Source: Pseudorhodobacter antarcticus
Lineage (GTDB): Bacteria; Pseudomonadota; Alphaproteobacteria; Rhodobacterales; Rhodobacteraceae
Assembly (NCBI GenBank): GCA_945871285.1
Contig: CAMBWO010000011.1
Location: 1-32,474 of the forward strand
Length of the DNA stretch: 32,474 nt
Reading direction: 5' to 3'
Part shown: positions 16,644 to 32,474 of the stretch, piece by piece
Numbering within the stretch: the stretch's first letter is position 1
Layout: each line of letters starts with the position of its first letter
The notes under the pieces: generated by a model
What the model was told of the DNA's origin: nothing
Database searches by the model: none
The model's input: the letters and a program-made list of their open reading frames with translations, nothing else
Program-made: the position numbers and the translations under genes

Positions 16644-17647
16644 GAGGCGCGCCCGAGTTTGATCTTGGATTTGGGGTCAAGCGCGTCACGCAATCCGTCG
16701 CCAAAAACGTTCAATGAGAGGACCGAAATCACGATCATGATGCCGGGAGCCAGGGCCACGACGGGGCGGGTGTAGAGAAGGCCCTGCCCGTCCTGAATGA
16801 TGGTGCCCCAGGACGCATCGGGCGGTTGAACGCCGATGGACAGGAAGGACAAAGCACTTTCGGTCAGCATGTTCAGCGCCATCATGATGGGCACGAAGAC
16901 GATGAGGGTGGTGGAGATGTTGGGCAGGATATCCTTAAGCAGGATGCGCGAGGGCGGCGCCCCCAACCCGATGGCGGCCATGACGAAATCGGAATTCCTG
17001 AGCGACATCACCTGCCCCCGGATGGGCCGGGCGACGTAAGGAATGTAGATCAGGCCGATGATGAAGATGGGCAGCCAGAGGGAGCCAGAGTCGATCACAA
17101 AGGGCCCGATGGTGATGCCTTGGGTGATGAGGACGATCGAGAGGGAGATGGCCAGCAGGTAGACCGGAAACGCCCAGAGGACATCGAGGATGCGGGACAG
17201 AACCATATCCACCACGCCGCCGAAAAACCCGGCGGCAAGGCCAAAGGCGGTGGCGAAGGTCAGGGTGAATGTGGTGGCGGCGGCGGCGATCAGGATCGAG
17301 TTCATCCCGCCATACAGCAGACGCGCCATCACGTCGCGGCCCTGATTGTCGGCCCCCAGAAAGTAGTTGCCAAGTTCCCATGTCGGGCCGATGGGGGTGT
17401 AGCCAAGGGCAAGGCCCGTGGTCGGCAGTTCCATCACGGGACGCTGTTCGCCGTTGATCGTGATCACGGCGTCGAGGGTGGATTTGAAGGGCTGCACACC
17501 GGCCCAATAGGCATAGACCGGGGCCATCAGGCAGGCGACCACGACAGCCAGAAACACGGCAAGCGCGACCAATGCGGTGCGGTCGCGGCGCATACGATGA
17601 AATGCCGTGGCCCATGGGCCACGGCTGGTGTTTGGGGCAAGGCTCAC
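16640..17647 (-). CDS. peptide-type ABC transporter permease (DppC-like)
   Basis: A 335-residue permease with the N-terminal OppC-type region (RMRRDRTALVALAVFLAVVV) and a periplasmic loop that includes LGADNQGRDVMARLLYGG, a DppC/OppC hallmark. The coupling motif appears as DFVMAAIGLGAPPSRILLKD. It begins with GTG (17645-17647), four bases after the binding-protein stop, and overlaps the DppB-like gene by four bases. The N-terminal loop is longer than in E. coli DppC. Confidence 0.9.
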   Translation of the reverse strand: MSLAPNTSRGPWATAFHRMRRDRTALVALAVFLAVVVACLMAPVYAYWAGVQPFKSTLDAVITINGEQRPVMELPTTGLALGYTPIGPTWELGNYFLGADNQGRDVMARLLYGGMNSILIAAAATTFTLTFATAFGLAAGFFGGVVDMVLSRILDVLWAFPVYLLAISLSIVLITQGITIGPFVIDSGSLWLPIFIIGLIYIPYVARPIRGQVMSLRNSDFVMAAIGLGAPPSRILLKDILPNISTTLIVFVPIMMALNMLTESALSFLSIGVQPPDASWGTIIQDGQGLLYTRPVVALAPGIMIVISVLSLNVFGDGLRDALDPKSKIKLGRAS

Positions 17648-17651
17648 AGGA

Positions 17652-19304
17652 TCACTGGACCCATGACTGGGTGATCATCCAGTAGAACTGCGAGTTGAAC
17701 TGGAAGTTGCCCAGACGCTCGGACACAAAGTCGATCCGCTTGGGGGTGAACAGAGCGGCCATGGGGGCTGCATCGGTCACGGCCTTGTCGATATCGGCCC
17801 ACATCAGGTCGGCCGCCGCAGGATCGCTGACACCCAGCAGCAGCGCCTCGTCCATCTTGGCCTGAATGTCCTTGTCGCAGAAGCCCGCGATGTTGATGGA
17901 CGAGTCAGAGCCGGGGCTGAAGGAGGCGCAACCGAACAGGATGTTCAGGAAGTCCGACGCGGCGGGATAGTCCTGATACCATTGGGTCAACGAGATTTGC
18001 ACGTTGTTGTTGGTGTTCTGGATATAGGTGAACTGGATGTTCGGCGAGATCGGCTTGACCTCGGCCTCATAGCCAATCTCGGTCAGGACCGATTGCAGAT
18101 AAGTGCCGATCGACTTGGACACGGTGGTATCCTCGGCAATGATGGTTACCTTCTGGCCCTTGGTGCCAGACTCCTCGACCAGCGCCTTGGCTTTCTCCAG
18201 ATCGGGAGCGGACCACTTTTCGCCGGGATCGACGGTATAGGGGCAGTAGGGCACGTGTCCGGGGAAGCCGGGGGGCAGAACCTGGCAGATCGGGCTGGCC
18301 AGAACCGGGCCGCCGAACAGGTTGACCATGGCGTTGCGGTCGATGGCATAGTTGACGGCCTGACGCGCCAGCACGTTGTTGAAGGGCGCGATGTTGGTGT
18401 TCATCGGCGCATACCACCAGGCGGTGAGCGTGGTGATGTTGACCTGATCGGCATAGGTGGTGCCAATCTCGCCCAGACGGTCGGTCGGCGGCTGGTCGAA
18501 CATCCAGTCCGCTTCGCCGTTCTGAACGGCGGTGACCTGCGCTTCGTCGGTCAGGCCGAAATCGTATTGCACGACATCGGGGTAACCGTCGGGCTGGGCT
18601 TCCTCGCTCCAGACCTTGAAGTGGGGGTTGCGTTCCAGCTTCATGCCGGTGTTGGGGTCATAGGCGCTGATGTAATAGGCCCCGGTGCCGGGCGCGGGCA
18701 CGGTGCCAAGGTCACTGGCCGGAGTGTCGGCGGGCAGGATGGCCGCGTGGGGCAGCGCCAGCTTGTCAAAGAACTCGGCATCGGGGCGGGTCAGGTTGAT
18801 GGTGACGGTGCCCGCAGCCTCATCGCCCACAACGCCGCCCTCAAGGGTGCAGGTCGCGGGGTCGGCCAAGCAGGCATCGGCGCCCACGATGACGGAATAA
18901 AAGCCGCCAGCGGTGGGGCTGGACACCTTGAAGATGCGCTGCAACGAGGCGACAACATCCTTGACGCCCATTTCCTGACCGTTCGAGAACATGATCCCCT
19001 TGCGGATCTTGAACACATAGGTCTTGCCGTCATTGGTCGGCTCGGGGATCGCCTCGGCTAGGTTCGGAACCTTGGTGAAGCCGTCGGCGCCAGCGGCCTT
19101 TTTGAATCCGACAAGGCCGTCATAAAGGCTTTGATACACCTGCCAGTATTGCAAGGTATAGTTGATATGGGGGTCCACGGTGCCCCCGGCGGAACGGGCG
19201 ACCAAGCGCATGGTGCCGCCGCGATGTTCGGTCTGGTATTCGGCCAGGGCTGGCGTCAGGCCCAGAAGGCTGGCCGCGACGGTGGCAAACAGAAGTTTCT
19301 TCAT
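17652..19304 (-). CDS. family 5 extracellular solute-binding protein
   Basis: A 550-residue periplasmic binding protein (SBP_bac_5) for the operon transporter. A signal peptide is clear (MKKLLFATVAASLLGLTPALA, cut before EYQ). The mature part has the family pattern of a bilobal DppA/OppA protein, for example FKIRKGIMFSNGQEMGVKDV near residue 100 and RQAVNYAIDRNAMVNLFGGP near residue 320. The mature chain contains several cysteines (DACLADPATCTLEG; CQVLPPGFPGHVPYC), which may form disulfides. GGGGAG lies seven bases before the ATG. It follows the hydrolase gene at 19 nt. Neighbouring amide-cleaving enzymes suggest an amide or peptide ligand. Confidence 0.92.
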   Translation of the reverse strand: MKKLLFATVAASLLGLTPALAEYQTEHRGGTMRLVARSAGGTVDPHINYTLQYWQVYQSLYDGLVGFKKAAGADGFTKVPNLAEAIPEPTNDGKTYVFKIRKGIMFSNGQEMGVKDVVASLQRIFKVSSPTAGGFYSVIVGADACLADPATCTLEGGVVGDEAAGTVTINLTRPDAEFFDKLALPHAAILPADTPASDLGTVPAPGTGAYYISAYDPNTGMKLERNPHFKVWSEEAQPDGYPDVVQYDFGLTDEAQVTAVQNGEADWMFDQPPTDRLGEIGTTYADQVNITTLTAWWYAPMNTNIAPFNNVLARQAVNYAIDRNAMVNLFGGPVLASPICQVLPPGFPGHVPYCPYTVDPGEKWSAPDLEKAKALVEESGTKGQKVTIIAEDTTVSKSIGTYLQSVLTEIGYEAEVKPISPNIQFTYIQNTNNNVQISLTQWYQDYPAASDFLNILFGCASFSPGSDSSINIAGFCDKDIQAKMDEALLLGVSDPAAADLMWADIDKAVTDAAPMAALFTPKRIDFVSERLGNFQFNSQFYWMITQSWVQ

Positions 19305-19323
19305 TGCAGTCTCCCCGTTTTTG

Positions 19324-20214
19324 TTAGTCGTTCGCGTTCAGAAAACCACCGACGACGCCCATGCAGAACGGCTGTTCCTCGACATGGGGCATGTGGCTAG
19401 AGGCTTCGAAGATCACCCAGGTCGCGCCCGGGATCAGGTCCTTGTAGGGTTGGACGGTGGCAGGTGTCGCCTCGTCATGGCGGCCGGATATGATCAGCGT
19501 CGGCACGTTGATCTTGGGCAATTCTGGTGTGATGTCCCAGTTCTTCAAGGTGCCCACAACGAAAAATTCGTTGGGGCCGTTCATGGTGTGGTAAACGGTC
19601 GGGTCCTTGGCGGTTTGTTCAAAGCTGGCCACCACCTCGGGCGGGTTCGGCACGACGCGGCAGACATGGCGGGAATAGACCCATTCGGTGGCGGCCTTGT
19701 AGGCGGGGTTGTCATAGTCGCCCGAGGCTTCGTATTTGTTCAACGCGTCCTGAATATCCTGCGGCATTTCAGACCGCTGGCGCATCGCCTCGGAGGACCA
19801 CAGCGCCATCGATGCGGGTGAGTTTGCAATTGTGAGCGATTTCAACCCCTTGGACCGCCGCACGCCATATTCGGCCCCCAGCATCCCGCCCCAGCTTTGG
19901 CCCAGCACGTGAAAGCCCGCACGGATGCCCAGATGGTCGATCAGATTTTCCAACTCGTCCACAAACAATTGCGGGGTCCAGAACGAGGGGTCGGCGTCTG
20001 GCAGGTGGGTCGAGTTGCCGCAACCGATCTGGTCGTAGTGGATGACCGCCCGGCCATCGTTGGCCAGCAGTTTATAGGCGTCGATGTAGTTGTGCGCGAC
20101 GCCGGGGCCGCCGTGCAGCAGGATGATGGGGGTCTTGCCCGAGCCCAGATCGCCCGTGATGCGATACCATGTTTCATAATCGCGAAACCTGGCGCGGCCT
20201 TCTGTTTGTTTCAT
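19324..20214 (-). CDS. alpha/beta hydrolase, proline iminopeptidase / amino-acid amidase type
   Basis: A 296-residue cytoplasmic serine hydrolase with no signal peptide. The oxyanion motif HGGPG is at 34-38, the nucleophile is Ser107 in GQSWGG, and the likely acid and base are Asp247 (GRHDEATP) and His274 (SSHMPHVE). The subgroup includes proline iminopeptidases and L-amino-acid amidases that release ammonia from amino-acid amides. I use the ATG at 20214 (MKQTEGRARFRD), with GGGG six bases upstream. An alternative ATG at 20250 is also in frame. It lies between the FmdA-like amidase and the ABC transporter genes, so its substrate is probably imported by that transporter. Confidence 0.87.
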   Translation of the reverse strand: MKQTEGRARFRDYETWYRITGDLGSGKTPIILLHGGPGVAHNYIDAYKLLANDGRAVIHYDQIGCGNSTHLPDADPSFWTPQLFVDELENLIDHLGIRAGFHVLGQSWGGMLGAEYGVRRSKGLKSLTIANSPASMALWSSEAMRQRSEMPQDIQDALNKYEASGDYDNPAYKAATEWVYSRHVCRVVPNPPEVVASFEQTAKDPTVYHTMNGPNEFFVVGTLKNWDITPELPKINVPTLIISGRHDEATPATVQPYKDLIPGATWVIFEASSHMPHVEEQPFCMGVVGGFLNAND

Positions 20215-20322
20215 CTGATCCCCCGAGTCCTTTGAGCTTAAAGGTTCCATTTGTTTCGCCCTAGTCAACAAGATTCACGCGGGGTCGCAGTCCAAAGTCG
20301 GACATTTGTGCAGCTTCGCCCG

Positions 20323-21267
20323 TTATTCGAACACGGCCCGCGGGAAGTAAAAGCTGACAACCCAGTTGGGCATGTCGACGATTTCCGAGATGCGCAGATC
20401 GCCGCAGGTGGACACCAGCATATAGGCGTCCACCGCTGACAGGCCGCGCGTGGCACACAGGTGGTCGATCATGGCGGACACCGCATCGCGGGCACCGGAC
20501 ATCAGGTCAGGGCCGATGCCGGTGGTCACCTCATACCCCTTGGCGTCCAGATGGTTGGTGACCGGGCCGGGGGTGGTGAAGCGCGGGGTTTTCAGGTTGG
20601 CGCCCTTGATCAGATCCAGGGTCAGGACGACGTCCATCGGGCTTTCGATGGCGGTGCCGCACACCTCGCCGTCGCCTTGGGCGGCATGGGTGTCACCGAC
20701 ACTGAACAGGGCGCCGGCCACCTCGATCGGCAGGTAAAGCGTTGTTCCGGCGGCCAGATCGCGGATGTCCAGATTGCCGCCGACGCGGCGGGGCGGCACG
20801 ACGGAATGCAGGCCCATTGCGGCTGGGGCGCAGCCGATGGTGCCGGCAAAGGGTTTCAGCGGCACGCGGGCATGTTTGCCATAGAGGGCGGGGGCAAGGC
20901 TGGTGGAGTCATAGGACCAGATGTGCAGCGCGGGGTCGTCAAATTGGTCCGCCAGCAGGCCGAAACCCGGGATATTGGCCGTCCAGCCCCAACCCGAGGG
21001 GGCAAAGCTGTCAATCGTCACTTTCAGCGCATCGCCGGGCATGGCGCCCTCGATATAGATCGGTCCGGACACCGGATTGACCTTGGAAAAGTCCAGCGTG
21101 CTGACCTCGGCCACGGTGGATTTGGCGCTGAACTGACCGGCAGAACTGTCAAGGCAATGAAACAGGATGGTCGAGCCCGGTTCGGCGCGGACGGCTGGGG
21201 TCAAACTGTTGTCCCAGCCGAAATGGTGCTGTGCGCCGTGAATGGTGTAGTTGCAGTCCTTGCACAT
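20323..21267 (-). CDS. acetamidase/formamidase family protein
   Basis: A 314-residue FmdA/AmdA-family enzyme, expected to hydrolyse short amides such as formamide or acetamide to the acid and ammonia in the cytoplasm. Conserved stretches include HHFGWDNS near the N-terminus, GWGWTANIPGFGLL, and VGDTHAAQGDGEVCGTAIE, which holds the family His/Asp/Glu residues. The protein ends WVVSFYFPRAVFE as in relatives. I start at MCKDCNYTIHG (21267); an ATG three codons upstream (21276) is possible. The ORF track start at 21468 runs into the divergent neighbour. It is the first gene of the amide/peptide operon. Confidence 0.89.
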   Translation of the reverse strand: MCKDCNYTIHGAQHHFGWDNSLTPAVRAEPGSTILFHCLDSSAGQFSAKSTVAEVSTLDFSKVNPVSGPIYIEGAMPGDALKVTIDSFAPSGWGWTANIPGFGLLADQFDDPALHIWSYDSTSLAPALYGKHARVPLKPFAGTIGCAPAAMGLHSVVPPRRVGGNLDIRDLAAGTTLYLPIEVAGALFSVGDTHAAQGDGEVCGTAIESPMDVVLTLDLIKGANLKTPRFTTPGPVTNHLDAKGYEVTTGIGPDLMSGARDAVSAMIDHLCATRGLSAVDAYMLVSTCGDLRISEIVDMPNWVVSFYFPRAVFE

Positions 21268-21282
21268 GGCGGGCATTTCCCT

Positions 21283-21376
21283 GTTGGCTGATTCTTGCGG
21301 CCAACCTAGCGCAAGGGGTTGGGCGGGGGCCAGTTGCCTTTCACCCGGACCTTGCAACCGCTGCCAAAACTGGCAG
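21283..21376. promoter_or_regulatory. inverted repeats in the divergent amidase/dehydrogenase promoter region
   Basis: The 139-bp gap between the divergent starts holds two inverted repeats: GTTGGC (21283-21288) with GCCAAC (21300-21305), and CTGCCAAAACTGGCAG (21361-21376). The second ends 30 bp before the dehydrogenase ATG. Either could be an operator for one or both transcripts. No regulator gene is adjacent, so I cannot name the protein. Confidence 0.4.
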
Positions 21377-21406
21377 TGTCGCGGGCAACCAGTTGGAGGA
21401 AATGCG

Positions 21407-22291
21407 ATGGGTGAGACAGTAGGCTTTGTCGGCGTCGGCCTGATGGGGCATGGGATGGCGAAGAACATCGTTGAAAAGGGCTATCCGCTGATGGTGATCG
21501 CCCACCGCAACCGCGCCCCGGTCGAGGACCTGGTGGGGCGCGGCGCGGTCGAGGTGGCGACGCTGGAGGAGATGGGTGCTGCCTGCAGTGTGATCTTTCT
21601 GTGCCTGACCGGATCGCCGGAAGTGGCGGCGGTTGTGGCGCGGCTGAAACCCGTGCTGGCGGCGGGGTCGGTGATCGTCGATTGTTCAACCGCAGACCCG
21701 ACGGTGACGCTGCAACTGGCGGCGGAACTGGCCGAGAAGGGGGTGGGACTTGTGGATGCGCCACTGAGCCGGACGCCGAAAGAGGCCTGGGCCGGGACGC
21801 TGGATTGCATGGTTGGGGCCGATGACGCGCAGTTTGCCCGGTTGCAGCCGGTGATTGCATGCTTTGCCGCCAAGATCGTGCATATCGGCGGGGTCGGCGA
21901 TGGGCACAAGATGAAATTGCTGAACAATTTCCTGTCGCTGGGTTATGGCGCGCTTTATGCCGAGGCTTTGGCCCTGTCGCGCAAGGTGGGCATTCCGGTC
22001 GCCAAGTTCGACAGCGTCATCCGTGGCGGGCGGATGGATTGCGGGTTTTACCAGACCTTCATGGGCTATGCGCTGGAGGGCAACCGCGAGGCGCACCGCT
22101 TTACCCTGACCAATGCCCACAAGGACATGCGCTATGTCGAGGCGATGGCCAATGCGGCGGTCGTGGCGACACCGCTGGCCAGTGCCATCAAGAATTCCTA
22201 TGCCCATGCCGTCGCCAGCGGCAGCAACGGATCCGAGGATTACGTGCCGCATCTGGCCGATGTGATCGCCAAGGCGAACGGGGCGGCCTAG
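21407..22291 (+). CDS. NAD(P)-dependent beta-hydroxyacid dehydrogenase
   Basis: A 294-residue enzyme of the 3-hydroxyisobutyrate dehydrogenase / tartronate semialdehyde reductase family. The Rossmann motif is GFVGVGLMGHGMA (residues 6-18), the substrate loop is DAPLSRTPKEAWAGTL (118-132), and the catalytic lysine is Lys170 in GHKMKLLNNF. The loop differs from the DAPVSGG form of classical members, so the substrate is uncertain; a C4 sugar acid such as threonate is one possibility. The ATG at 21407 has GGAGG seven to eight bases upstream, and the 52 extra ORF-track residues are intergenic. It is a single gene between two minus-strand operons and shares CTAG as its stop with the kinase gene. 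Confidence 0.88.
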   Translation: MGETVGFVGVGLMGHGMAKNIVEKGYPLMVIAHRNRAPVEDLVGRGAVEVATLEEMGAACSVIFLCLTGSPEVAAVVARLKPVLAAGSVIVDCSTADPTVTLQLAAELAEKGVGLVDAPLSRTPKEAWAGTLDCMVGADDAQFARLQPVIACFAAKIVHIGGVGDGHKMKLLNNFLSLGYGALYAEALALSRKVGIPVAKFDSVIRGGRMDCGFYQTFMGYALEGNREAHRFTLTNAHKDMRYVEAMANAAVVATPLASAIKNSYAHAVASGSNGSEDYVPHLADVIAKANGAA

Positions 22292-23907
22292 CCCCGCAGC
22301 GCCTCGAACAGGCGGGCGACGGCTTCGGCGCCGGGGTCGATATGGCCCGACAGATTTTGCGCCGAGACATAAGAGGCGCGGCCGGAGCGGGCCTTTTTCA
22401 GCGTGGCGGTATAGTCGGCCCCCTTGCGGGCGGCGGTGGCGGCGGCGGCGATGCCGTCGCCCAAGGCCTCGAGTGCGGGGTGCAGGGCGTCCACCATCGT
22501 GCGGTCGCCCGGTTTTGCGCCGCCGATTTCCTGCATCCGTTCCAACCCCGCCTTCAGCGCGTCCTGCATGGTCATGCCGCTGGACGCAGCATCACCCGCA
22601 GCGGCAAAGAAGATGGCAAGAAGCACACCGGACGACCCGCCCATGGTCTGGCTCAGTTCCAGCCCGATGGCGCGGTAAAGCTGAGTATGGTCGGCCAAGG
22701 GCAGGTTGTCCATCGCGCCGATCAGGGCATGGGCCGCGCCAGACAGGGTGGACCCGGTATCGCCGTCGCCGGATTTGGCATCCAGGGCGTTCAGGTCATG
22801 TTCCAGCCCGATCATGATTTCGCAGCAATGCGTCAGGAAGGCACGGGTGGCGGGGTGGTTCGAGGGCAAGGGTTTGATCGGGGCCAGACCGTCGGGCAGC
22901 GCCAGAATGGCGGGTTTGCTGACCGAAAGGCAGCCTGGCCAGGCCGACAGATCGACGCGCGCGCACAAGGCCTCCTCATCCTGCGCGGTCAGGGGCAGGA
23001 CGGAAATCGACACGCCATGCATGTCCAGCGAGGTCATCATCGAGGACGGGCCGACCATGTATTTGATCCGGGGGGCAAGGGCGGAGCGGGCGAGTTCATA
23101 GGCCAGCACCGACATCTCCAGTTCCGACGTGGCGCCAAGGTTGTTCAAGAGCACGGCATGGGGCTGGTCGGACATCACGGGCGTCAGACGTTCGATCATC
23201 GCACTCATCGCCTGTTCGGCACCGGAAAAATCGATCTGGTCGACGCCGGGTTCACCGTGGATGCCAAGGCCCAGTTCGGCCATGCCGGGGGTGATGCGGC
23301 TTTCCTTGGCCGACCCCGGCACGGTGCAGGTGTCCAGCGACATGCCGATGGATTTGGTGCCGGCGATGACCCGCTCGGCCGCCTCGGTGACGGTCGCAAG
23401 GTCGGCGCCCTGTTCGGCGAGGTGGCCCGCGATCTTGTGCACAAACAGCGTGCCGGCAAGGCCGCGCGACTGCGGCAGGTCGGGCAGGGCGATGTCGTCA
23501 TCCACGATCACCATGCTGACCTTGCGGCCAAAGGCACGGGCGCGTTCGGCGGCCAGGCCAAAGTTCAGCCGGTCGCCAGTGTAGTTTTTCACGATCAGCA
23601 AACACCCCGCGGCCCCCGTCACCGCCAGAATCCCCGCCAGTACCGCATCGACCGAAGGGCTGGCGAACACATCGCCGCAGACCGCCGCCGTCAGCATCCC
23701 CGCACCGACAAACCCCGCATGGGCGGGTTCGTGCCCTGCCCCGCCACCCGACACCAGCGCAACCCGTGAGCGGTCCCAATCGGCCCGCACCACAACGCGT
23801 ATATGGGGAAAGCCGTCCAACCGGGTCAGACGCCCCCCCGAGGTGAGGATCGCGCCCTCGATCGCCTCGGTCACGATGTTTTCGCGCTTGTTCATGAATT
23901 GGGTCAT
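22288..23907 (-). CDS. ATP-dependent dihydroxyacetone-type kinase (fused DhaK-DhaL)
   Basis: A 539-residue kinase with both domains fused, as in ATP-dependent Dak enzymes. DhaK spans about residues 1-330: SGGGAGHEPAHAGFVG, and His217 in GIHGEPG, which in the family bonds covalently to the keto group of the substrate. DhaL spans about 350-539, with Mg-ATP ligands in SGDGDTGST (Asp381, Asp383). Likely substrates are dihydroxyacetone or a C4 ketose such as erythrulose. It starts at the ATG at 23907 with AAGGA upstream, 10 nt after the ATPase gene, as last gene of the ABC operon. This suggests that the imported sugar is phosphorylated directly. Confidence 0.91.
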   Translation of the reverse strand: MTQFMNKRENIVTEAIEGAILTSGGRLTRLDGFPHIRVVVRADWDRSRVALVSGGGAGHEPAHAGFVGAGMLTAAVCGDVFASPSVDAVLAGILAVTGAAGCLLIVKNYTGDRLNFGLAAERARAFGRKVSMVIVDDDIALPDLPQSRGLAGTLFVHKIAGHLAEQGADLATVTEAAERVIAGTKSIGMSLDTCTVPGSAKESRITPGMAELGLGIHGEPGVDQIDFSGAEQAMSAMIERLTPVMSDQPHAVLLNNLGATSELEMSVLAYELARSALAPRIKYMVGPSSMMTSLDMHGVSISVLPLTAQDEEALCARVDLSAWPGCLSVSKPAILALPDGLAPIKPLPSNHPATRAFLTHCCEIMIGLEHDLNALDAKSGDGDTGSTLSGAAHALIGAMDNLPLADHTQLYRAIGLELSQTMGGSSGVLLAIFFAAAGDAASSGMTMQDALKAGLERMQEIGGAKPGDRTMVDALHPALEALGDGIAAAATAARKGADYTATLKKARSGRASYVSAQNLSGHIDPGAEAVARLFEALRG

Positions 23908-23917
23908 GGCTTTTTCC

Positions 23918-24913
23918 TTACGGGATGCGGGCGCCGGTGGCGTCAAAGTAGAAGGGGCGGTCGGGTTGGATTTTCACGATATCGCCTGATTTCAATGCGG
24001 TATGGGCGCCGGTCACAGTGACAAGGTCGTGGTTGTGAAAGGACAGGTGCAGGCGGGTCTGGTCGCCCAGGTGTTCCACCCGCTTGACCAGACTATCCTG
24101 CCCCCTGCCCTGCAGGATCTGTTCGGGGCGCAGGCCGATCTTGACGGCACCCGGCGGGGCCGGGCCGAACAGGTCGGCGGGCAGAATGTTGATATGGGGC
24201 TGACCCAGGCGGCCTGCGGCATAAATGCTGACGGGATGTTCATAAATCTCACGCGGGGTGCCAAATTGGACCAGGCGGCCATGGTCCAACACGCCGACAT
24301 GGGTGGCCATGGTCATCGCCTCGATCTGGTCATGGGTGACGTAAAGGAAGGTGGCGCCCAGGTTGGCCTGGATGTTCTTCAACTCGACCCGCAAGTCGGC
24401 GCGCAGCTTTGCGTCCAGACTGCTGAGGGGTTCGTCCATAAGATAGACCGCCGGGTTGCGCACCAGGGCGCGGCCGATGGAGACGCGCTGCATCTCGCCG
24501 CCGGACAGGGCGGTGGCCTTGTTGTTCAGCTTGTGACTGATTTGCAAGATTTCGGCGACTTCATCCACCTTGCGGTCGATCTCGGCGCGGGGCGTTCGCA
24601 GAAGTGGGGACTTCAGCGGAAACTCCATGTTTTCGCGCACGGTCAGATGGGGGTAGAGCGAGTATTGCTGAAACACCATCGCGACGTTGCGCTGGGCAGG
24701 GGTCAGCCCCTTCATCGCGATGCCGCCGATGGTGACCGCCCCGCTGTCGGGCGCATCAAGGCCGGACACCATGCGCAAGAGCGTGGTCTTGCCCGCCCCG
24801 GTGGGGCCCAGCAGCACGACAAAGGAGCCATCGGGCACGGTCATCGTCACATCCCGCAAGGCGGCCTGCGCGCCGAAGGATTTCGTCACGGTTTGCAGAT
24901 GCACCTCAGCCAT
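23918..24913 (-). CDS. sugar-type ABC transporter ATPase (second of two)
   Basis: A 331-residue MalK/UgpC-type ATPase. Walker A is GPTGAGKTT, the signature LSGGEMQRVSIGRAL, Walker B VYLMDEPLSSLDA, and the switch region VTHDQIEAMTM. A C-terminal TOBE-like domain follows from about residue 240. It overlaps the preceding ATPase gene by 8 nt. Most CUT1 sugar importers use one ATPase as a homodimer; here two different complete ATPases are encoded, so a heterodimer is likely. All catalytic motifs look intact in both. Confidence 0.91.
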   Translation of the reverse strand: MAEVHLQTVTKSFGAQAALRDVTMTVPDGSFVVLLGPTGAGKTTLLRMVSGLDAPDSGAVTIGGIAMKGLTPAQRNVAMVFQQYSLYPHLTVRENMEFPLKSPLLRTPRAEIDRKVDEVAEILQISHKLNNKATALSGGEMQRVSIGRALVRNPAVYLMDEPLSSLDAKLRADLRVELKNIQANLGATFLYVTHDQIEAMTMATHVGVLDHGRLVQFGTPREIYEHPVSIYAAGRLGQPHINILPADLFGPAPPGAVKIGLRPEQILQGRGQDSLVKRVEHLGDQTRLHLSFHNHDLVTVTGAHTALKSGDIVKIQPDRPFYFDATGARIP

Positions 24914-26003
24914 GGGTCAGCACCTTTTGATTGGCTTTCGAGATCATGGCGCGGCCCGTTCCGCTGTCGAACAGCGTGATCGAGCGGGCGTCGAAATTCA
25001 GGCCGGTCGTCTCGCCGATCCGCACAGCGATGTCGGAGGCTATTCGGGATTTGACCTGCCCCAGTGGGGTGTCGAGGGTGACGATCTGGGTGGTGCCCAG
25101 GTATTCGGTGGCGACTACCCGAGCGCGGTAGGCGGCGCTGTCGGACAGGTGGACATGCTCGGGCCGCACACCAAAGGTCAGCGCCCCTGCCCCGCCACTG
25201 ACCATTTCAGGCACGGCAACCGCGGCCCCTGCAAGGGAGACGGTGTGCGAGCCATTGCCGACCATGCCCTCAAACGGCAGCAGGTTCATGGCGGGCGAGC
25301 CGATGAAGCGGGCGACAAAGGTGGTGGCGGGCCAGTCGTAAATCTCTTGCGGGCGGCCGAATTGTTCGACAACGCCGTGATTCATCACCACGATCTTGTC
25401 GCCCATCTGCATCGCCTCCAACTGGTCATGGGTCACGTACACGGTGGTGGCGCCCATCCGGTCATGCAGGGCGCGCAGTTCTTCGGCCATCCGCTCGCGA
25501 AACTCGGCATCCAGCGCGCCCAGGGGTTCGTCCATCAGGAAACACGCCGGATCGCGGACGATGGCGCGGCCAAGGGCCACGCGCTGACGATCGCCACCGG
25601 ACAGGCCGCCGACAGGCTTTTCCAGGATCGAGGTGATGCCGAGGATTTCGGCCACCTCGTTCACCTTGGCGCGGACCTGATCGCGGGGCATGCCCTGGCT
25701 GACCAGCGGGTAAGAGATGTTTTTGCGCACGTTCAGATGGGGGTAGAGGGCGAACATCTGGAACACAAAGGCGATGTCGCGCTGGGATGCGGGTTTCTGG
25801 CTGACCTCCTCACCATCAATAAAAATCTCGCCCGCCGTGGGCAGTTCCAGGCCTGCAATCATGCGCAGGGTCGTGGTCTTGCCGCAGCCCGAGGGGCCAA
25901 GCAGCATGAAGAATTCGCCATCCTCGACCGTAAAGCTGGAGGATTGCACGGCGGTAAAGGCCCCGAATTCCTTGCGCACATTCTTGATGACGATCTGGGC
26001 CAA
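24906..26003 (-). CDS. sugar-type ABC transporter ATPase (first of two)
   Basis: A 365-residue MalK/UgpC-type ATPase with Walker A GPSGCGKTT, signature LSGGDRQRVALGRAI, Walker B CFLMDEPLGALDA and switch VTHDQLEAMQM. The C-terminal TOBE-type region includes FIGSPAMNLLPFEG and FGVRPEHVHL. It begins 3 nt after the small membrane protein gene and overlaps the second ATPase by 8 nt. It is clearly diverged from its partner (for example FVFQMFALYPH against MVFQQYSLYPH), so the pair is not a recent duplication. Confidence 0.92.
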   Translation of the reverse strand: MAQIVIKNVRKEFGAFTAVQSSSFTVEDGEFFMLLGPSGCGKTTTLRMIAGLELPTAGEIFIDGEEVSQKPASQRDIAFVFQMFALYPHLNVRKNISYPLVSQGMPRDQVRAKVNEVAEILGITSILEKPVGGLSGGDRQRVALGRAIVRDPACFLMDEPLGALDAEFRERMAEELRALHDRMGATTVYVTHDQLEAMQMGDKIVVMNHGVVEQFGRPQEIYDWPATTFVARFIGSPAMNLLPFEGMVGNGSHTVSLAGAAVAVPEMVSGGAGALTFGVRPEHVHLSDSAAYRARVVATEYLGTTQIVTLDTPLGQVKSRIASDIAVRIGETTGLNFDARSITLFDSGTGRAMISKANQKVLTHG

Positions 26004-26006
26004 GGC

Positions 26007-26195
26007 TTACTCCGGGAAATGGCTGACGATGATGAACATGACAGTCCCCACCAGCGTGACGATGAAGGAATAGGTGAACAGGATCATGGCAAAGGGTTGC
26101 ATCAGCATGACCACGCCAAGGGCGATCAGGATGGTGGCTAGCATCTCCCACGGGCCACGGCGCAGGCGCATCAAACCGTTGATAAACTGGGTCAT
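26007..26195 (-). CDS. 62-residue membrane protein within the ABC operon
   Basis: This small gene is obscured in the ORF track by a 131-residue frame that runs into the permease gene. The true start is the ATG at 26195, which overlaps the permease stop as ATGA. It ends 3 nt before the ATPase gene. The protein has a basic N-terminus (LMRLRRGPW) and two hydrophobic segments, roughly residues 17-40 and 42-59. The N-terminus is probably cytoplasmic. I do not recognise a family. Its tight placement between permease and ATPase genes suggests a stabilising or regulatory subunit. Glycerol ABC operons in rhizobia also carry a small membrane protein gene (as I recall), but this sequence is not obviously the same. 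Confidence 0.78.
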   Translation of the reverse strand: MTQFINGLMRLRRGPWEMLATILIALGVVMLMQPFAMILFTYSFIVTLVGTVMFIIVSHFPE

Positions 26196-27130
26196 TTCCG
26201 CACCGCCCCAAAGGTGATGCCGCGCAGCAGGTGTTTGCGCAGAAGGATGGTGAACACCATGATCGGCACCAGAAACAGCGTGGCCCCGGCGGCGACGGCG
26301 GGCCAGTCCTTGCCCCCGGTCCCGATGATGGTGGGGATGAAGGGCGGGGCGGTTTGCGCGGTGCCCGAGGTGAGGAGCGCCACAAAGGCATATTCGTTCC
26401 AAGCAAAGATCAGGCAGAAGATCGCGGTCGAGGCGATGCCGGTGGCGGCCTGCGGCAGGACGACCTTGGTGAACGCCTGAAACCGCGTGTAGCCGTCGAT
26501 CAGGGCAGCCTCCTCATACTCCACCGGGATTTCGTCGATGAACCCTTTCAGCAGCCAGACCGACAGCGACAGGTTCACGGCAGTATAAAGCAGGATCATC
26601 CCCAGATGCGTATCTGACAGGCCAAGCTGGCGATACATCAGGAAAATCGGGATGGCGACGGCGATGGGGGGCATCATCCGAGTGGAGAGGATGAAGAACA
26701 AAAGGTCGTCCTTCAGCGGCACCTTGAACCGGCTGAAGGCATAGGCGGCGATGGTGCCAAGGAACACCGACAGGAAGGTCGAGCCAAAGCCGATGATGAC
26801 CGAGTTCAGGAACCGTTCGCCATATTTCGACGGGCCTGTGATGACCATGTCATACTGCCGCACGATGCGGTCGTAAAAGGTATCAGGCGGCGGCAGGGCG
26901 GCGAGATCCTCGGGCGTCACGCGGGAGCGTGAGGTGAACAGGTTCACATAGCCTTCCAGCGAGGGTTCAAAGAACACCTTGGGCGGATAGGCGATGGCGT
27001 CTTGCGGGGTCTTGAAGCCGGTTGCGATGATCCAGATCAGCGGGATCAGCGTCAGCACGGCATAGGTCACGACCAGAACGCCTGCGATCCACTTTTGACG
27101 GCCGGATGGTTCGGTGATGGAAAAGCTCAT
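26192..27130 (-). CDS. sugar ABC transporter permease (MalG-like)
   Basis: A 312-residue permease of the MalG type. The first helix is WIAGVLVVTYAVLTLIPLIW, and several more follow after a large periplasmic loop (about residues 45-105). The EAA coupling motif is seen as EYEEAALIDGYTRFQAFTKVVLP. I start it at MSFSITE (27130), overlapping the upstream permease by ATGA; the ORF-track extension is out of context. The stop overlaps the start of the 62-residue gene. It forms the channel together with the next permease. Confidence 0.91.
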   Translation of the reverse strand: MSFSITEPSGRQKWIAGVLVVTYAVLTLIPLIWIIATGFKTPQDAIAYPPKVFFEPSLEGYVNLFTSRSRVTPEDLAALPPPDTFYDRIVRQYDMVITGPSKYGERFLNSVIIGFGSTFLSVFLGTIAAYAFSRFKVPLKDDLLFFILSTRMMPPIAVAIPIFLMYRQLGLSDTHLGMILLYTAVNLSLSVWLLKGFIDEIPVEYEEAALIDGYTRFQAFTKVVLPQAATGIASTAIFCLIFAWNEYAFVALLTSGTAQTAPPFIPTIIGTGGKDWPAVAAGATLFLVPIMVFTILLRKHLLRGITFGAVRK

Positions 27131-28074
27131 CTGTCTTTGACCTTGTTGAGTGCCTTGACGTAGATCGAGGCCAGACCGAACACCGTGACGAACAGGATCA
27201 CGGCATAGGCCGAGGCATAGCCAGTGCGCCATTTCTCAAACGCCTCGCGTTTCAGGTCGATCGAGGTCAGCAAGGTCGTGGACCCCGGCCCGCCGCCGGT
27301 CAGTTGCACAACCAGATCGAACATCTTGAAATTCTCGATGCCGCGGAACAGCACGGCCAGCATCAGGAAGGGCAAGGCCATGGGAATGGTGATAGTCCAG
27401 AACTGCCGCCATTTGCTGGCCCGGTCACATTCGGCCGCCTCATATATGCTGGGCGGGATTGACCTCAGACCGGCCAGACAGATCAGCATCACAAAGGGCG
27501 TCCACATCCAGGTATCGACAATCACGATGGCCCAGGGGGCAAGGGCGACGTCGCCGATCATCGAGAAACTGGCCGGGTCGGCGCCGGTCAGGAAGGCGAT
27601 GAAGTAATTGAACAGGCCGATTTGCGGCTGATACAGGAACGTCCAGAAGTTGCCCACGACGGCGGGCGACAGCATCATGGGCAGTACGATCAGCGTCGTC
27701 CACAGATCATTGCCGCGGAATTTCTTGTTGATCAGGTAGGCGAGGGTGAAGCCGATCAGCACCTGCAACACGATGGTCCAGATCAGGAAATGCGCGGTGG
27801 ATTGCAGGGCGATCCAGGTGTCCTCATCTGTCAGGATCTTGCGGTAATTCTCGAGGCCCACAAACTCGACCGCATTGTTGGGCCGGTTGGTGCGAAAATT
27901 GGTCAGGCTCAACCGGATGGTCCAGATCAGCGGAAAGATGTTGATCGCCAGCAGCAGAAAGATCGTTGGCGCCACGAACAGCCACGCAATGGTGCGGTCC
28001 GACAGACCCCGGATGCGATGGGCAAGCTGGGGCGGCGTGGCAGAGGCCACGCGGTGTGCCAAAGGATCAGACAT
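27127..28074 (-). CDS. sugar ABC transporter permease (MalF-like)
   Basis: A 315-residue permease with a first helix WLFVAPTIFLLLAINIFPLI near residues 30-50 and five more hydrophobic segments. The EAA-type coupling motif appears as SIYEAAECDRASKWRQFWTI. The C-terminal region contains LTGGGPGSTT, common in this family. It is the second gene of the operon, 114 nt after the binding-protein gene, with two hairpins in that gap. It overlaps the following permease by four bases. Confidence 0.91.
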   Translation of the reverse strand: MSDPLAHRVASATPPQLAHRIRGLSDRTIAWLFVAPTIFLLLAINIFPLIWTIRLSLTNFRTNRPNNAVEFVGLENYRKILTDEDTWIALQSTAHFLIWTIVLQVLIGFTLAYLINKKFRGNDLWTTLIVLPMMLSPAVVGNFWTFLYQPQIGLFNYFIAFLTGADPASFSMIGDVALAPWAIVIVDTWMWTPFVMLICLAGLRSIPPSIYEAAECDRASKWRQFWTITIPMALPFLMLAVLFRGIENFKMFDLVVQLTGGGPGSTTLLTSIDLKREAFEKWRTGYASAYAVILFVTVFGLASIYVKALNKVKDR

Positions 28075-28188: not shown

Positions 28189-29502
28189 TCAGAGCTTGCC
28201 TTCTTCCTCGAAAACTTCGGTCCAATCGGCAACCAGACCGTCCAGCGCCTCTTTCGCGCTGCCCTGACCGGCAACCACATAGTCATGGAACCGCTTTTGC
28301 GAGGCCTGCAACAGGGTTGCATAGGCGGGTTCAGCCCAGAAGTCCTTGACGATGGCCATGCTGTCCAGGAAGGTCTGCGCATAGGGCGCGCTTGCCACGA
28401 ACCCCGGATCCTCGACCACGGCCCGCAGAGCCGAGAAGCCACCCAGTTTCCACCACTTGGCCTGCACTTCGGGCTGGGCGAACCACTTGATATAGGTCAG
28501 CGCCGCCTCTTGCTTTTCCGAGGAAGCAACAACCGAAATGCCCTGGCCGCCCAGTTGCGCGAACTTGTCGCCATTCGGACCAGCGGGGTTGGCGAAATAG
28601 CCGGTCACGTCGCCGCCGACAGTGGCATCGGTGTCAAAACCCGGCCAGGTGAACGCAAAGTTCATCTGCAACGCAACCTGCCCCGATTTGAACGCATCCA
28701 CACCCTCGCCCATATAGCTGTTGGACGATCCGGGCGGGGTGCAGCAATCATACAGCGCCTTGTAGAACTCCAGACCGGCAATCGCCCCTTCGGAGTTCAC
28801 GAAACCCTCCATCTCATAGGGCTTGTCGGGGTTGTCGTAATTGAAGCCAAAGCTGTAAAGGACGTCCATCGCGCCCATCGTGATGCCTTCGGACCCGCGC
28901 TCGGTATAGATCGAGGCGCCGTAGACCGTCTTGCCGTCAATGTCGCGGCCCTGGAAGAATTCGGCGGTGTCCTTGAGTTCCGCAAAGGTCGCAGGCACGC
29001 CCAGATCGCGGCCATACTTTTCCTTGAACGCGGCCTGAATGTCCGGACGAGCGAACCAATCCTTGCGGTAGGTCCAGCCGACCACATCGCCAAAGGCCGG
29101 CAGCGACCAGTAGTTCGGCGTGCCCTTGGGCCATTCGGAATAGCCGGTCACGGTGGCGGGGATGAAGGCATCCATCGAGATGCCGTTGGCATCGAAGAAA
29201 TCGTTCAGCTTGACATATTGACCATTTTCAGCCGCTCCGCCGATCCACTGGCTGTCACCGATCAGCAGGTCGCACAGCTTGCCACCCGAGTTCAACTCGT
29301 TCAACATCCGGTCGGCAAAGTTCGTCCACGGCACGAATTCAAAGGACATCTTGTTGCCCGACTGCGCCTCGTAATCCTTGCTCAACTCGATCAGTGCGTT
29401 TGCCGGGTCCCAGGCGGCCCAGCACAAGGTCAGGTCTTCGGCCTGAGCCGCCCCCGCGACAAACGCCAGCACGGCGGACGTCAACATCAACTTAGATTTC
29501 AT
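28189..29502 (-). CDS. sugar ABC transporter substrate-binding protein
   Basis: A 437-residue periplasmic binding protein of the family 1 (maltose-type) class. The signal peptide is MKSKLMLTSAVLAFVAGAAQA, cut before EDL. The mature N-terminus reads CWAAWDPANALIELSKDYEA, and a further Cys pair occurs in YDCCTPPGSSN; disulfides are possible. I use the ATG at 29502 with GGAGG eight bases upstream, rather than the GTG at 29508, which is too close to that site. It is the first gene of the operon ending in the DhaK-DhaL kinase. Its promoter carries a LacI-type operator. The ligand is unknown; a triose or tetrose is suggested by the kinase only. Confidence 0.92.
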   Translation of the reverse strand: MKSKLMLTSAVLAFVAGAAQAEDLTLCWAAWDPANALIELSKDYEAQSGNKMSFEFVPWTNFADRMLNELNSGGKLCDLLIGDSQWIGGAAENGQYVKLNDFFDANGISMDAFIPATVTGYSEWPKGTPNYWSLPAFGDVVGWTYRKDWFARPDIQAAFKEKYGRDLGVPATFAELKDTAEFFQGRDIDGKTVYGASIYTERGSEGITMGAMDVLYSFGFNYDNPDKPYEMEGFVNSEGAIAGLEFYKALYDCCTPPGSSNSYMGEGVDAFKSGQVALQMNFAFTWPGFDTDATVGGDVTGYFANPAGPNGDKFAQLGGQGISVVASSEKQEAALTYIKWFAQPEVQAKWWKLGGFSALRAVVEDPGFVASAPYAQTFLDSMAIVKDFWAEPAYATLLQASQKRFHDYVVAGQGSAKEALDGLVADWTEVFEEEGKL

Positions 29503-29561
29503 CTTCACTTCCTCCCGGTTAAAGGCCCCGGCTTGCCTGCCGTGACTCTATTCCCCTTCGA

Positions 29562-29591
29562 TTGTTACGTGAGGTGCGTGCCTCATGGCAA
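29562..29591 (-). promoter_or_regulatory. candidate promoter of the ABC/kinase operon
   Basis: Read on the minus strand, TTGCCA (29591-29586) and TAACAA (29567-29562) are separated by 18 bp and fit a sigma-70 promoter. The first LacI-type operator (29570-29585) fills almost the entire spacer, so bound repressor would block RNA polymerase directly. The leader to the ATG would be about 50 nt. Confidence 0.5.
29570..29585. promoter_or_regulatory. LacI-family operator O1
   Basis: TGAGGTGCGTGCCTCA has 5-bp perfect arms (TGAGG/CCTCA) and matches the second site in 15 of 16 positions. It lies inside the spacer of the candidate promoter for the ABC/kinase operon. The adjacent divergent LacI-family gene is the obvious binding protein. 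Confidence 0.72.
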
Positions 29592-29599
29592 GAAGATTC

Positions 29600-29615
29600 T
29601 GAGGTGCGTACCTCA
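29600..29615. promoter_or_regulatory. LacI-family operator O2
   Basis: TGAGGTGCGTACCTCA has 6-bp perfect arms (TGAGGT/ACCTCA). It starts exactly 30 bp from O1, about three helical turns, so two dimers could bind on the same face. It is 60 bp upstream of the regulator ATG and could mediate autoregulation. Confidence 0.72.
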
Positions 29616-29674
29616 AGTTGGTTGCGTCAGGCCCTGCTTTGCGCGACAAGGGCCGGAGGAGGTGATGGATCGTG

Positions 29675-30694
29675 ATGCGACCGACGACAAAAGACCTGGC
29701 AAAGGCGGCCGGGGTCAGCCTGGCCACAGTGGACCGGGTTCTGAACGACCGTCCGGGCGTGCGCGAGGATACTGTCAAGATCGTCCACGAGATGATTGAA
29801 AAGATTGGCTTCATCCGAAACCTGTCCGCCGCCAATCTGGCGCGCAGCCGCAGCTATCGGTTCCTGTTTCTGGTGCCGCGCACCGGCGATCAGTTTCTGG
29901 CCGAGCTGATAGCCCGCGTGGCGGAGGCGAATACCACCCTTGCCAGCGACATGAGTTTCGCCGAAGTGGCGCAGATTCACGAAAGCGACCCGCACCAGAT
30001 TGCCGATTACCTCAGCGCGTTGGACCCGCAGGCGGTGGACGGCGTGGCGATCATGGCGCCCGAGTCGCCGCAGGCCCGCGACGCCAAGGCGCAGTTGCGC
30101 CGGCGCGGCATCGAAACGGTGACGCTGATTTCCGGCCAGACCAGCGGGGATGAGGTGTTCGTCGGCATCGACAACCACGCCGCCGGGGCCACGGCGGGGC
30201 GGCTGATGGGGCGGTTCCTGGCGGATCGACGGGGCAAGCTGATGGTCATCGCCGAAACCATGCGCGCCCGCGACAGTCTGGAGCGGAGGCTGGGCTTTGA
30301 TGAGATCATCAACGCCGATTATCCGCAACTGAACGTCCTTCCCTCGCTGGAAACCCATGGCGACCCGGACCGCACCGAACGGGTGTTGGCCCAGACGCTC
30401 GCCAGCCACAGCGACATTTGCGGCATCTATCTGCTGGGGTCCGAGGCGCGCCTGCCGCTGCAAAAGGTGGCCCATTTGCGCCCCGAGGCCAAGCCGATCA
30501 TCATCGCCCATGAACGCACGCCGTTCACCGAGGCGGGCCTGCGATCGGGCCAGATCGACGCGCTGATCACCCAGGACCCCGGTCATCTGGTGCGCAGCGC
30601 CGTGCGGATCATGCGCGCCCGCTGCGACCGCCGCGAGGTTCTGGCCAGTCAGGAAAAGATCCGGATCGAGATTCTGCTGAGCGAGAATTTGTAG
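29675..30694 (+). CDS. LacI-family transcriptional regulator
   Basis: A 339-residue regulator. The N-terminal helix-turn-helix reads TTKDLAKAAGVSLATVDRVL, with the LacI hinge segment SAANLARSRS near residue 55. The rest is a periplasmic-binding-protein-like sensor domain. The recognition helix has TVDRVLN rather than the more common TVSRVLN, a variant I have seen in sugar regulators. I use the ATG at 29675; a GTG one codon upstream is possible, and AGGAGGTGAT precedes both by about 9-12 bases. It diverges from the ABC/kinase operon and most likely represses it through the two 16-bp operators until a sugar or sugar phosphate binds. Confidence 0.9.
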   Translation: MRPTTKDLAKAAGVSLATVDRVLNDRPGVREDTVKIVHEMIEKIGFIRNLSAANLARSRSYRFLFLVPRTGDQFLAELIARVAEANTTLASDMSFAEVAQIHESDPHQIADYLSALDPQAVDGVAIMAPESPQARDAKAQLRRRGIETVTLISGQTSGDEVFVGIDNHAAGATAGRLMGRFLADRRGKLMVIAETMRARDSLERRLGFDEIINADYPQLNVLPSLETHGDPDRTERVLAQTLASHSDICGIYLLGSEARLPLQKVAHLRPEAKPIIIAHERTPFTEAGLRSGQIDALITQDPGHLVRSAVRIMRARCDRREVLASQEKIRIEILLSENL

Positions 30695-30776: not shown

Positions 30777-31832
30777 TCAAGTCAGCACGCGGCCATCCGG
30801 GCCAAAAAGAACTGCGCTCGTCAGGTCAAATCCGATATGGGCGACATCGCCCAAACGGACCTGCACATCGCCGGGGGCCTTGATCGTCAAGCTGGCACCG
30901 GTGTCCAAACGAACATGCAGGATTGATTCGTCACCCAAATGTTCCACCAGCGTGACCTGCCCGCTGGCCTGTGCCCGGGCTTGCGGCACCAGCGACAGCC
31001 GATCCGGTCGCAAACCCAAAGTCACGGGCCCCGCTAGCGCAGGCTTGGGCCAGGGAAGCTGGGTTCCCCAAGGCAGGGTCAATCCGCCCTGCCCCGCCAT
31101 CGCCGGGATCAGGTTCATCGCCGGGCTGCCGATGAAGCCCGCGACGAACAGGTTGGCGGGGTTGTGATACACCTCACGCGGGGTGCCGACCTGCTCGACA
31201 CGGCCCGCATTCAGCACAACGATGCGGTCAGCCAGCGTCATCGCCTCGACCTGATCATGGGTGACGAAGATCATCGTGGCCTTCAGGTCGTGGTGCAGGC
31301 GGGCGATCTGGCTGCGCATTTCCACCCGCAGCGAGGCATCCAGGTTGGAAAGCGGCTCGTCGAACAGGAACACCTCGGGCTTGCGCACGATGGCGCGACC
31401 GATGGCGACGCGCTGCCGCTGACCGCCGGACATCGCCTTGGGGCGGCGGGGCAAAAGTTCAGTGATTTGCAGCAGGACGGCAGCTTCCTGCACGCGGGCA
31501 TCGACATCGGCGCGGGCCATGCCGGCACGGCGCAGACCGTAGGCAAGGTTGTCGTAAGCGGTCATGTGGGGATACAGCGCATAGTTCTGAAAGACCATCG
31601 CCACCCCGCGCCGCGCCGGGGCCAGTTCGGTGACATCGGCACCCGCAATGCGGATATCGCCGTAATCGACATCCTCAAGCCCCGCAATCATCCGCAACAG
31701 GGTGGATTTGCCGCAGCCCGACGGGCCGACAAACACGACCAACTCGCCATCCGCCACGGTCAGATCGACACCCTTGATCACCTCCATCTGACCAAACAGC
31801 TTGCGCACCCCTGTCAGTTGAACCGCGCCCAT
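30777..31832 (-). CDS. sugar ABC transporter ATPase (MalK/UgpC-like)
   Basis: A 351-residue ATPase with Walker A GPSGCGKST, signature MSGGQRQRVAIGRAI, Walker B VFLFDEPLSNLDA and switch VTHDQVEAMTL, followed by a TOBE-type C-terminal domain (LGLRPDRLSLV). It is the last gene of a second sugar-import operon, starting 9 nt after the permease gene to its right. The window has no binding protein for it, so the substrate is unknown; maltose-like sugars, polyols and glycerol-3-phosphate are all possible for this family. Confidence 0.91.
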   Translation of the reverse strand: MGAVQLTGVRKLFGQMEVIKGVDLTVADGELVVFVGPSGCGKSTLLRMIAGLEDVDYGDIRIAGADVTELAPARRGVAMVFQNYALYPHMTAYDNLAYGLRRAGMARADVDARVQEAAVLLQITELLPRRPKAMSGGQRQRVAIGRAIVRKPEVFLFDEPLSNLDASLRVEMRSQIARLHHDLKATMIFVTHDQVEAMTLADRIVVLNAGRVEQVGTPREVYHNPANLFVAGFIGSPAMNLIPAMAGQGGLTLPWGTQLPWPKPALAGPVTLGLRPDRLSLVPQARAQASGQVTLVEHLGDESILHVRLDTGASLTIKAPGDVQVRLGDVAHIGFDLTSAVLFGPDGRVLT

Positions 31833-31841
31833 ACCGTGCCC

Positions 31842-32474
31842 CTATTTCAAACTGGAGGAGGCCAGCCCCTGCCGGAACAGGCGCTGGGTCAAGAGGAACA
31901 AGATCACCATGGGCAACGCCGTGATCAGCGCACCGGTCATCACCGCCGACCATTCCTTGGCCCGCGTCGCCTGAAAGGTGAAGAGGCCCAGCGACAGTGG
32001 AAACTTCTCGCGGTCCTGCAGATAGATCAGGGGGCCGAAGAACTCGTTCCAGGTGTAGACGATGGCGAACAGCGCGACGATCACCAGCGCCACCCGCACC
32101 TGAGGCAGCACGATCTGCCACCAGATGCGGAATTCCGACGCCCCATCCAGCCGGGCCGCGTCCATCAATTCGCGCGGCACCCCCATGAAGAATTGGCGCA
32201 GCATGAAGATGTAGAAGGCATCGCCCAAGAGGAAGGGCGCGATCAGCGGCCAATAGGTGCCGTTCAAACCCAGTTTCGTCCAGCCCAGATAGACCGGCAG
32301 AAAGGTCACGATAGCGGGCATCAGCAGGGCACAGACGGTCAGGCCAAACACCAGATTGCGCCCCCTCCAGCGCAGGCAGCCAAAGCTGTAGGCGGCGAGC
32401 GAGCAGGAAAACACCACGGCCACCGCCACCGATCCGGCGTAAAAGACCGAGTTGAAAAACTGGCGCAGGAAGGG
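31842..32474 (-). CDS. sugar ABC transporter permease (MalG-like), 5' end outside window
   Basis: About 210 C-terminal residues are present. The frame stays open to the right edge (PFLRQFFNSVFYAGSVAVAV), so the M at 32429 in the ORF track is an internal GTG, not the start. The EAA coupling motif is seen as ELMDAARLDGASEFRIWWQI, and the last helices include MTGALITALPMVILFLLTQR. The missing part should be about 60-80 residues (the first helix and part of the periplasmic region). It is followed by its ATPase at 9 nt. Confidence 0.9.
   Translation of the reverse strand, partial: PFLRQFFNSVFYAGSVAVAVVFSCSLAAYSFGCLRWRGRNLVFGLTVCALLMPAIVTFLPVYLGWTKLGLNGTYWPLIAPFLLGDAFYIFMLRQFFMGVPRELMDAARLDGASEFRIWWQIVLPQVRVALVIVALFAIVYTWNEFFGPLIYLQDREKFPLSLGLFTFQATRAKEWSAVMTGALITALPMVILFLLTQRLFRQGLASSSLK

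Follow-up and report, generated by a model that had tools for sequence, protein, structure and literature searches.

The window, which is the whole stretch of 32,474 nt that was analysed, is one entire contig of a 4.6-Mb assembly with 89% completeness and 4% contamination. Its plus strand encodes a LacI-family regulator (29675–30694), and divergently from it, on the minus strand, runs an operon for an ABC importer and a kinase. The first operon gene codes for the solute-binding protein (28189–29508), assigned by PF01547 and synteny, and is followed by permease A (27127–28074; profile match and synteny), permease B (26192–27136; profile match and synteny, the coordinates being those of the reading frame, with the true start codon slightly inside it), two ATPases (24906–26003 and 23918–24913; profile matches and synteny) and, as the last gene, a kinase of the ATP-dependent dihydroxyacetone kinase type (22288–23907), assigned by its Dak1 and Dak2 domains and by alignment. 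Between permease B and the first ATPase lies, on the same strand, a 62-aa membrane-type ORF (26007–26195) that has no Pfam match and in whose place annotated plasmids carry a hypothetical protein. Almost all of the close relatives examined share this gene order, and so do annotated plasmids, among them a Ti plasmid and one of Agrobacterium vitis.

The kinase aligns over its full length with the Citrobacter freundii enzyme (1un9; 503 bits) and conserves the substrate-binding histidine (His220) as well as the metal-binding GDGDTGST segment. Against the NCBIfam glycerone kinase equivalog it scores 491.7, below the cut-off of 574.95, and its substrate could be another short ketose instead of dihydroxyacetone. 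It differs from the C. freundii kinase in being encoded together with a dedicated ABC importer, and no description of such an operon was found in the literature searched, which covers few subscription papers. Elsewhere in the window, a second sugar ABC system (30777–32474), with a UgpC-like ATPase and a permease, converges on the regulator gene from the opposite strand and has no copy of the operators described below beside it, and the region 13733–21468 holds peptide-type ABC transporter genes together with genes for an alpha/beta hydrolase and a member of the acetamidase/formamidase family.

The regulator combines a LacI-type helix-turn-helix (HTH) domain (PF00356; 47.5 bits, with the cut-off at 27), which has the recognition helix VSLATVDR, with a ligand domain of the Peripla_BP_4 type (PF13407; 112.9 bits), and its predicted model matches sugar-binding proteins, PurR and CcpA. 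The architecture of HTH domain and hinge is like that of Escherichia coli LacI, and the invariant Leu56 and Ala57 correspond to the hinge residues that enter the central CG of the operator. Unlike LacI, the 340-residue protein has no C-terminal tetramerisation helix, as the model ends at residue 340 directly after the ligand domain, so that one tetramer cannot bridge two sites. The recognition helix also reads TVDR where LacI has TVSR, and base pair 6 of the operator is A, not G.

Two palindromic 16-bp sites lie between the regulator gene and the operon. The spacer operator, O1 (29570–29585), reads TGAGGTGCGTGCCTCA, or TGAGGCACGCACCTCA on the minus strand, and the distal operator, O2 (29600–29615), reads TGAGGTGCGTACCTCA, or TGAGGTACGCACCTCA on the minus strand. 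The first-pass annotation had reported them as twin sites that differ at one base and are phased by 30 bp, and these coordinates are exact: the start-to-start distance is 30 bp, and the sites are separated by a 14-bp linker (GAATCTTCTTGCCA; 29586–29599). In a scan of the window for the palindrome with up to three mismatches, four strand-matches were found where 0.64 are expected, and none of 100 shuffles gave four. When the degenerate pattern was searched in the whole assembly (427 contigs), O1 and O2 were the sole full-strength copies, no other match had fewer than two mismatches, and a wider regulon with additional full-strength sites was not detected in this genome. Likewise, in about 1.1 Mb of related loci, few sites occur beyond the promoter region, and nearly all of them lie upstream of the transporter gene. 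Since the module is also present in isolates (Cypionkella, Pleomorphomonas), an assembly artefact is excluded.

Among the 16 LacI-type HTHs of the genome, only the regulator at 29675–30694 has such a pair. Twin sites were considered as a general habit of the LacI proteins of this genome and this was rejected, as just one further upstream pair of similar palindromes was found, with a distance of 20 bp. A separate LacI-type HTH reading frame of the same assembly (locus L167; G000:C321:83-220) lies at a contig end, has an in-frame TAG near its start and is directly preceded by two palindromes 14 bp apart (ATGACATCGGTGTCAT); possible explanations are a pseudogene and an error of assembly.

The linker contains the predicted −35 element of the operon, TTGCCA (29591–29586, minus strand), and an A-rich stretch that adjoins O2. 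The −10 element, TAACAA (29567–29562, minus strand), begins two bases beyond O1, so that O1 occupies 16 of the 18 bp between the two hexamers. Counting the −10 as −12 to −7, we infer that O1 covers about −30 to −15 and O2 about −60 to −45 of the operon promoter. A rule-based sigma-70 scan made no call for this promoter in the contig; it passes over it for want of a T at position 6 of the −10, and the support for the promoter is therefore comparative, coming from positions that are conserved across loci. In 50 dereplicated loci, the TTG of the −35 is invariant (50/50), the preceding C is found in 42 and the following C in 38, and an A stands at linker position 2 in 46. The A-rich stretch by O2 reads GAAT in the contig and AAAAT in most relatives. 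A TA two bases past O1 is present in about 80% of these loci, with T in 39/50, A in 42/50 and a T at hexamer position 6 in 25/50. Read in the direction of the operon, the conserved order is O2, A-rich stretch, C-TTG-C, O1, two bases and TAnnnT. The suggestion that O1 fills the spacer between a possible −35 and a possible −10 thus gains support from conservation across loci.

Relatives of the regulator were drawn from GTDB contigs and from a set of 298 family genomes, 84 of which contain a match at E ≤ 1e-50; some loci are present in both collections, among them L017/L066, L020/L073, L041/L100 and L052/L117. The statistics on 50 loci and the trees are dereplicated, and the counts for the other gene arrangements, given below, are raw. 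The pair stands beside regulator orthologues in 60 divergent loci of Rhodobacterales and Hyphomicrobiales, which is the conservation that had been proposed as a check on the motif, and its spacing is 30 bp in 59 of them and 29 bp in one. In the 50 dereplicated loci, the palindromes, the TTG of the linker and the TA past O1 stand out from flanks that are near background. The operator is an even palindrome, and its central CG is found in 100 of 100 sites. In the same loci, O2 lies 50–130 bp from the regulator start and O1 lies 25–278 bp from the transporter start. As these distances vary freely, the fixed 14-bp linker does not merely reflect recent ancestry, and selection most likely keeps its length constant.

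A pattern for the whole module matched in six of the 298 family genomes, in all six cases beside a regulator orthologue, and the reversed pattern, used as a control, had no match in the 298. A class-wide search for pairs spaced by 20–50 bp yielded a single genome out of 385, with 30 bp, which is too few for a test of spacing. The whole switch and operon are also found on the Ti plasmid pTiL51_94 (L100) and on a plasmid of A. vitis (L102), where they adjoin transposases or type IV secretion genes. A non-alphaproteobacterial copy, in a Granulosicoccaceae metagenome-assembled genome (L046), has the divergent arrangement and a single operator.

Besides the divergent loci, two further gene arrangements were found. 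In more distant relatives, the regulator gene follows the kinase at the far end of the operon, about 7.2–7.7 kb from the promoter, and the pair still stands at the transporter promoter, with a spacing of 30 bp in 12 of 16 loci and 31 bp in two, and with one site in the remaining two. Where the regulator gene lies upstream and co-directional, 27 loci have fewer than two sites, spacings of 30, 31 and 32 bp occur in three loci each, and the surviving single site is mostly in the O2 position. The exact 30-bp phasing of the first-pass annotation therefore holds strictly for the divergent loci, but among relatives overall the spacing is 29–32 bp, mostly 30, and the occurrence of 31 and 32 bp points to a window near an integral number of turns instead of one exact number. 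Furthermore, since the pair remains upstream of the transporter even with about 7 kb between promoter and regulator gene, both sites belong to the operon.

The co-directional relatives also carry a composite site, TGATTGACGTACCTCA, upstream of the regulator gene in 31 loci (e.g., L082, L055, L091, L115, L117), in which a −35-like TTGACG takes the place of part of one half-site; in many of them a TAnnnT-like −10 follows about 17–18 bp on. The composite resembles a fusion between an operator and the −35 of the regulator gene itself. The −35 elements of the operon differ between arrangements as well. It is always TTG, usually with C at position 4, in the divergent loci; in the operon promoters of L104, L105, L110, L114 and L124–L139 it departs from TTGACA, in most cases by one base (TGGACA, TAGACT, TCGACA, TTTACA), and in the upstream co-directional loci it is likewise off TTGACA, mostly at one position. 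Such deviating hexamers could signal dependence on an activator.

On the other side of O2, a probable promoter of the regulator gene (29622–29650, plus strand) consists of a −35 TTGCGT (29622–29627), a 17-bp spacer and a −10-like GACAAG (29645–29650). In 32 of 36 motif-A divergent loci, TTGC or TTGA is found 4–7 nt past O2, and 23 nt beyond it comes an A-rich box resembling GAAAA; TTGC past O2 occurs in 36 of the 50 loci against 2.3 in shuffles. The view that O2 faces the regulator gene needs to be amended accordingly: the pair belongs to the operon promoter, but in divergent loci O2 does lie 4–7 bp from a conserved regulator −35, and this position makes a role of O2 in autoregulation plausible. 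Motif-B loci (e.g., L073, L080, L079, L026) have a TGCTATA-like box 5–11 nt past O2, which points to an overlap, within this branch, of O2 with an extended −10 promoter of the regulator.

The assignment of the sites to the adjacent regulator, already made in the first-pass annotation, is supported by this conservation and by covariation between recognition helix and operator. Regulators with VSLATVDR go with operators of the form TGAGGT(A/G)C|G..., and those with VSRATVDR with TGAG(G/A)CAC|G.... At the third base pair from the centre, 137 of 144 half-sites have T where the regulator has Leu (LA helix), and 56 of 56 have C where it has Arg (RA helix); the residue at position 1 of the recognition helix tracks this base pair, as well as base pairs 2 and 4. 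On a tree of the ligand domain, built without the HTH, helix residue and operator base each change twice, and a single origin of the Arg regulators is rejected (p-AU 0.005), with L081 as the outlier. This locus, from genome G083, combines an Arg-type helix and motif-B operators with a ligand domain that groups, on a long branch, with the Leu-type regulators. It is possible that HTH and operators were exchanged together by recombination, which would look identical, and under either history helix and operators travel together. Genome G083 also carries another copy of the system, in which the regulator stands at the operon's end (L105).

The paired-operator switch is very probably genuine, and it belongs to a kind that is already known, the LacI-family tandem operators. 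With good confidence, the regulator is predicted to be a local, ligand-released repressor, two dimers of which on O1 and O2 would bracket the −35 of the ABC/dihydroxyacetone-kinase operon (29508–22288). Without inducer, one dimer on O1 would cover the spacer and block RNA polymerase, while a second on O2 would close the upstream contact region, and a spacing near an integral number of turns would place both on roughly one face of the DNA. Binding of the imported ketose, or of a compound made from it, to the Peripla_BP_4 domain would release both dimers, and O2, directly upstream of the regulator's −35, may in addition tune expression of the regulator. As there is no tetramerisation helix, looping between O1 and O2 by a tetramer is ruled out, and any contact would be made between two dimers or via the polymerase. 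Operators of the raf operon likewise flank a −35 element. Comparison of loci bears out the operators, the promoter elements, the spacing constraint, the covariation and the attachment of the pair to the operon; that control is by repression, that the dimers cooperate and that the ketose is the inducer, we infer. Several features count against it. One half-site of O1 deviates (TGAGGCAC), the −10 of the contig is poor, and 30 bp correspond to 2.86 turns at 10.5 bp per turn, slightly off the same-face ideal, with 31 and 32 bp nearer to three. Survival of O2 alone in co-directional loci would also be unexpected if O1 were the main repressing site.

There is some room for dual control, in which O2, centred at about −52 by an A-rich region of the proximal alpha-CTD type, activates, O1 represses, and ligand or occupancy decides between them. 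LacI-family proteins that activate from upstream sites include CcpA and Cra. O2 is indeed the site retained where O1 is lost in the upstream co-directional arrangement, and the co-directional and downstream −35 elements usually miss TTGACA at one position (e.g., TGGACA, TAGACT, TTTACA), as in promoters that need help. However, the divergent loci, including the contig, always keep the TTG and have O1 in the spacer, where a repressor classically blocks, and dual control is unlikely, although a real chance for it is left. Equally unlikely is its extension to a two-way switch, in which O2, kept in all three arrangements, would activate or prime transcription and so make up for an imperfect −35, and O1 would be an optional brake; if true, the lineage would document how, once the regulator gene had moved, the brake was lost step by step and the −35 decayed.

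A division of labour, with O1 repressing the operon and O2 serving mainly as the regulator's autoregulatory operator, was the reading of the first-pass annotation, and it would be in line with the conserved regulator −35 at 4–7 bp past O2 in motif-A divergent loci and with the TGCTATA-like −10 at 5–8 bp past O2 in motif-B loci, where O2 would overlap the regulator promoter. Yet the pair stands at the transporter promoter even without a regulator gene nearby, O2 is retained there more often than O1, and the regulator of co-directional relatives has a separate site of its own, which leaves this reading a slim chance. That the palindromes are targets of an unlinked regulator, with the neighbouring LacI-type protein as a bystander, is very improbable: the genome does encode 15 other LacI-type HTHs, but operator core and the neighbour's recognition helix have changed together twice, and the sites occur at one locus only, tracking operon and regulator across two bacterial orders. 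Chance palindromes or a structural (RNA or terminator) element can practically be dismissed, for although O2 and the linker score as a terminator-like hairpin on the minus strand, the pair and its fixed 14-bp linker persist in 60 loci despite diverged flanks, the site lies upstream of a promoter, and a −35 stands where a run of T would be expected.

The bracketing arrangement can be placed among characterised LacI-family systems. Operators of this family are even palindromes with a central CG, and about 20% of the regulated operons have two or more sites, whose distances show peaks at 13, 22 and 32 bp, of which the latter two were read as cooperative binding of dimers (Ravcheev et al., 2014; PMC4052901). 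In comparison with these tandem operators from RegPrecise (PMC4052901), O1 and O2 are of the same kind, palindromic with a central CG, but their 30 bp (31–32 bp in some relatives) fall just short of the 32-bp peak and are tied to the −35 in the linker. RafR, of the raffinose operon, and ScrR of Burkholderiales have double sites only, spaced by 21–22 bp and thought to be bound cooperatively (PMC4052901). O1 and O2 are not spaced in this way (30 bp in 59 of 60 loci), and they belong to a different regulator group and a different motif. The motif strings were not found in the literature searched, in which few subscription papers are included. The analysis hence offers a specific predicted operator for a widespread LacI-type regulon, of which that literature gave no description and which would serve to import and phosphorylate a short ketose in Rhodobacterales and Hyphomicrobiales, and the three gene arrangements allow the role of each operator to be asked.

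With regard to recognition, positions 1 and 2 of the helix set specificity in the LacI family, and in the TVSR subgroup residues 15 and 16 go with base pairs 5 and 4 (Camas et al., 2010; PMC2978694). Specificity would likewise reside in the recognition helix here, but the aligned relatives have TVDR or TIDR and an A at base pair 6, outside of the TVSR subgroup, and position 1 tracks base pair 3. The paired changes from Leu to Arg and from T to C, which took place twice, amount to a natural experiment on how operators are recognised in the TVDR branch, a branch not covered by the published LacI code.
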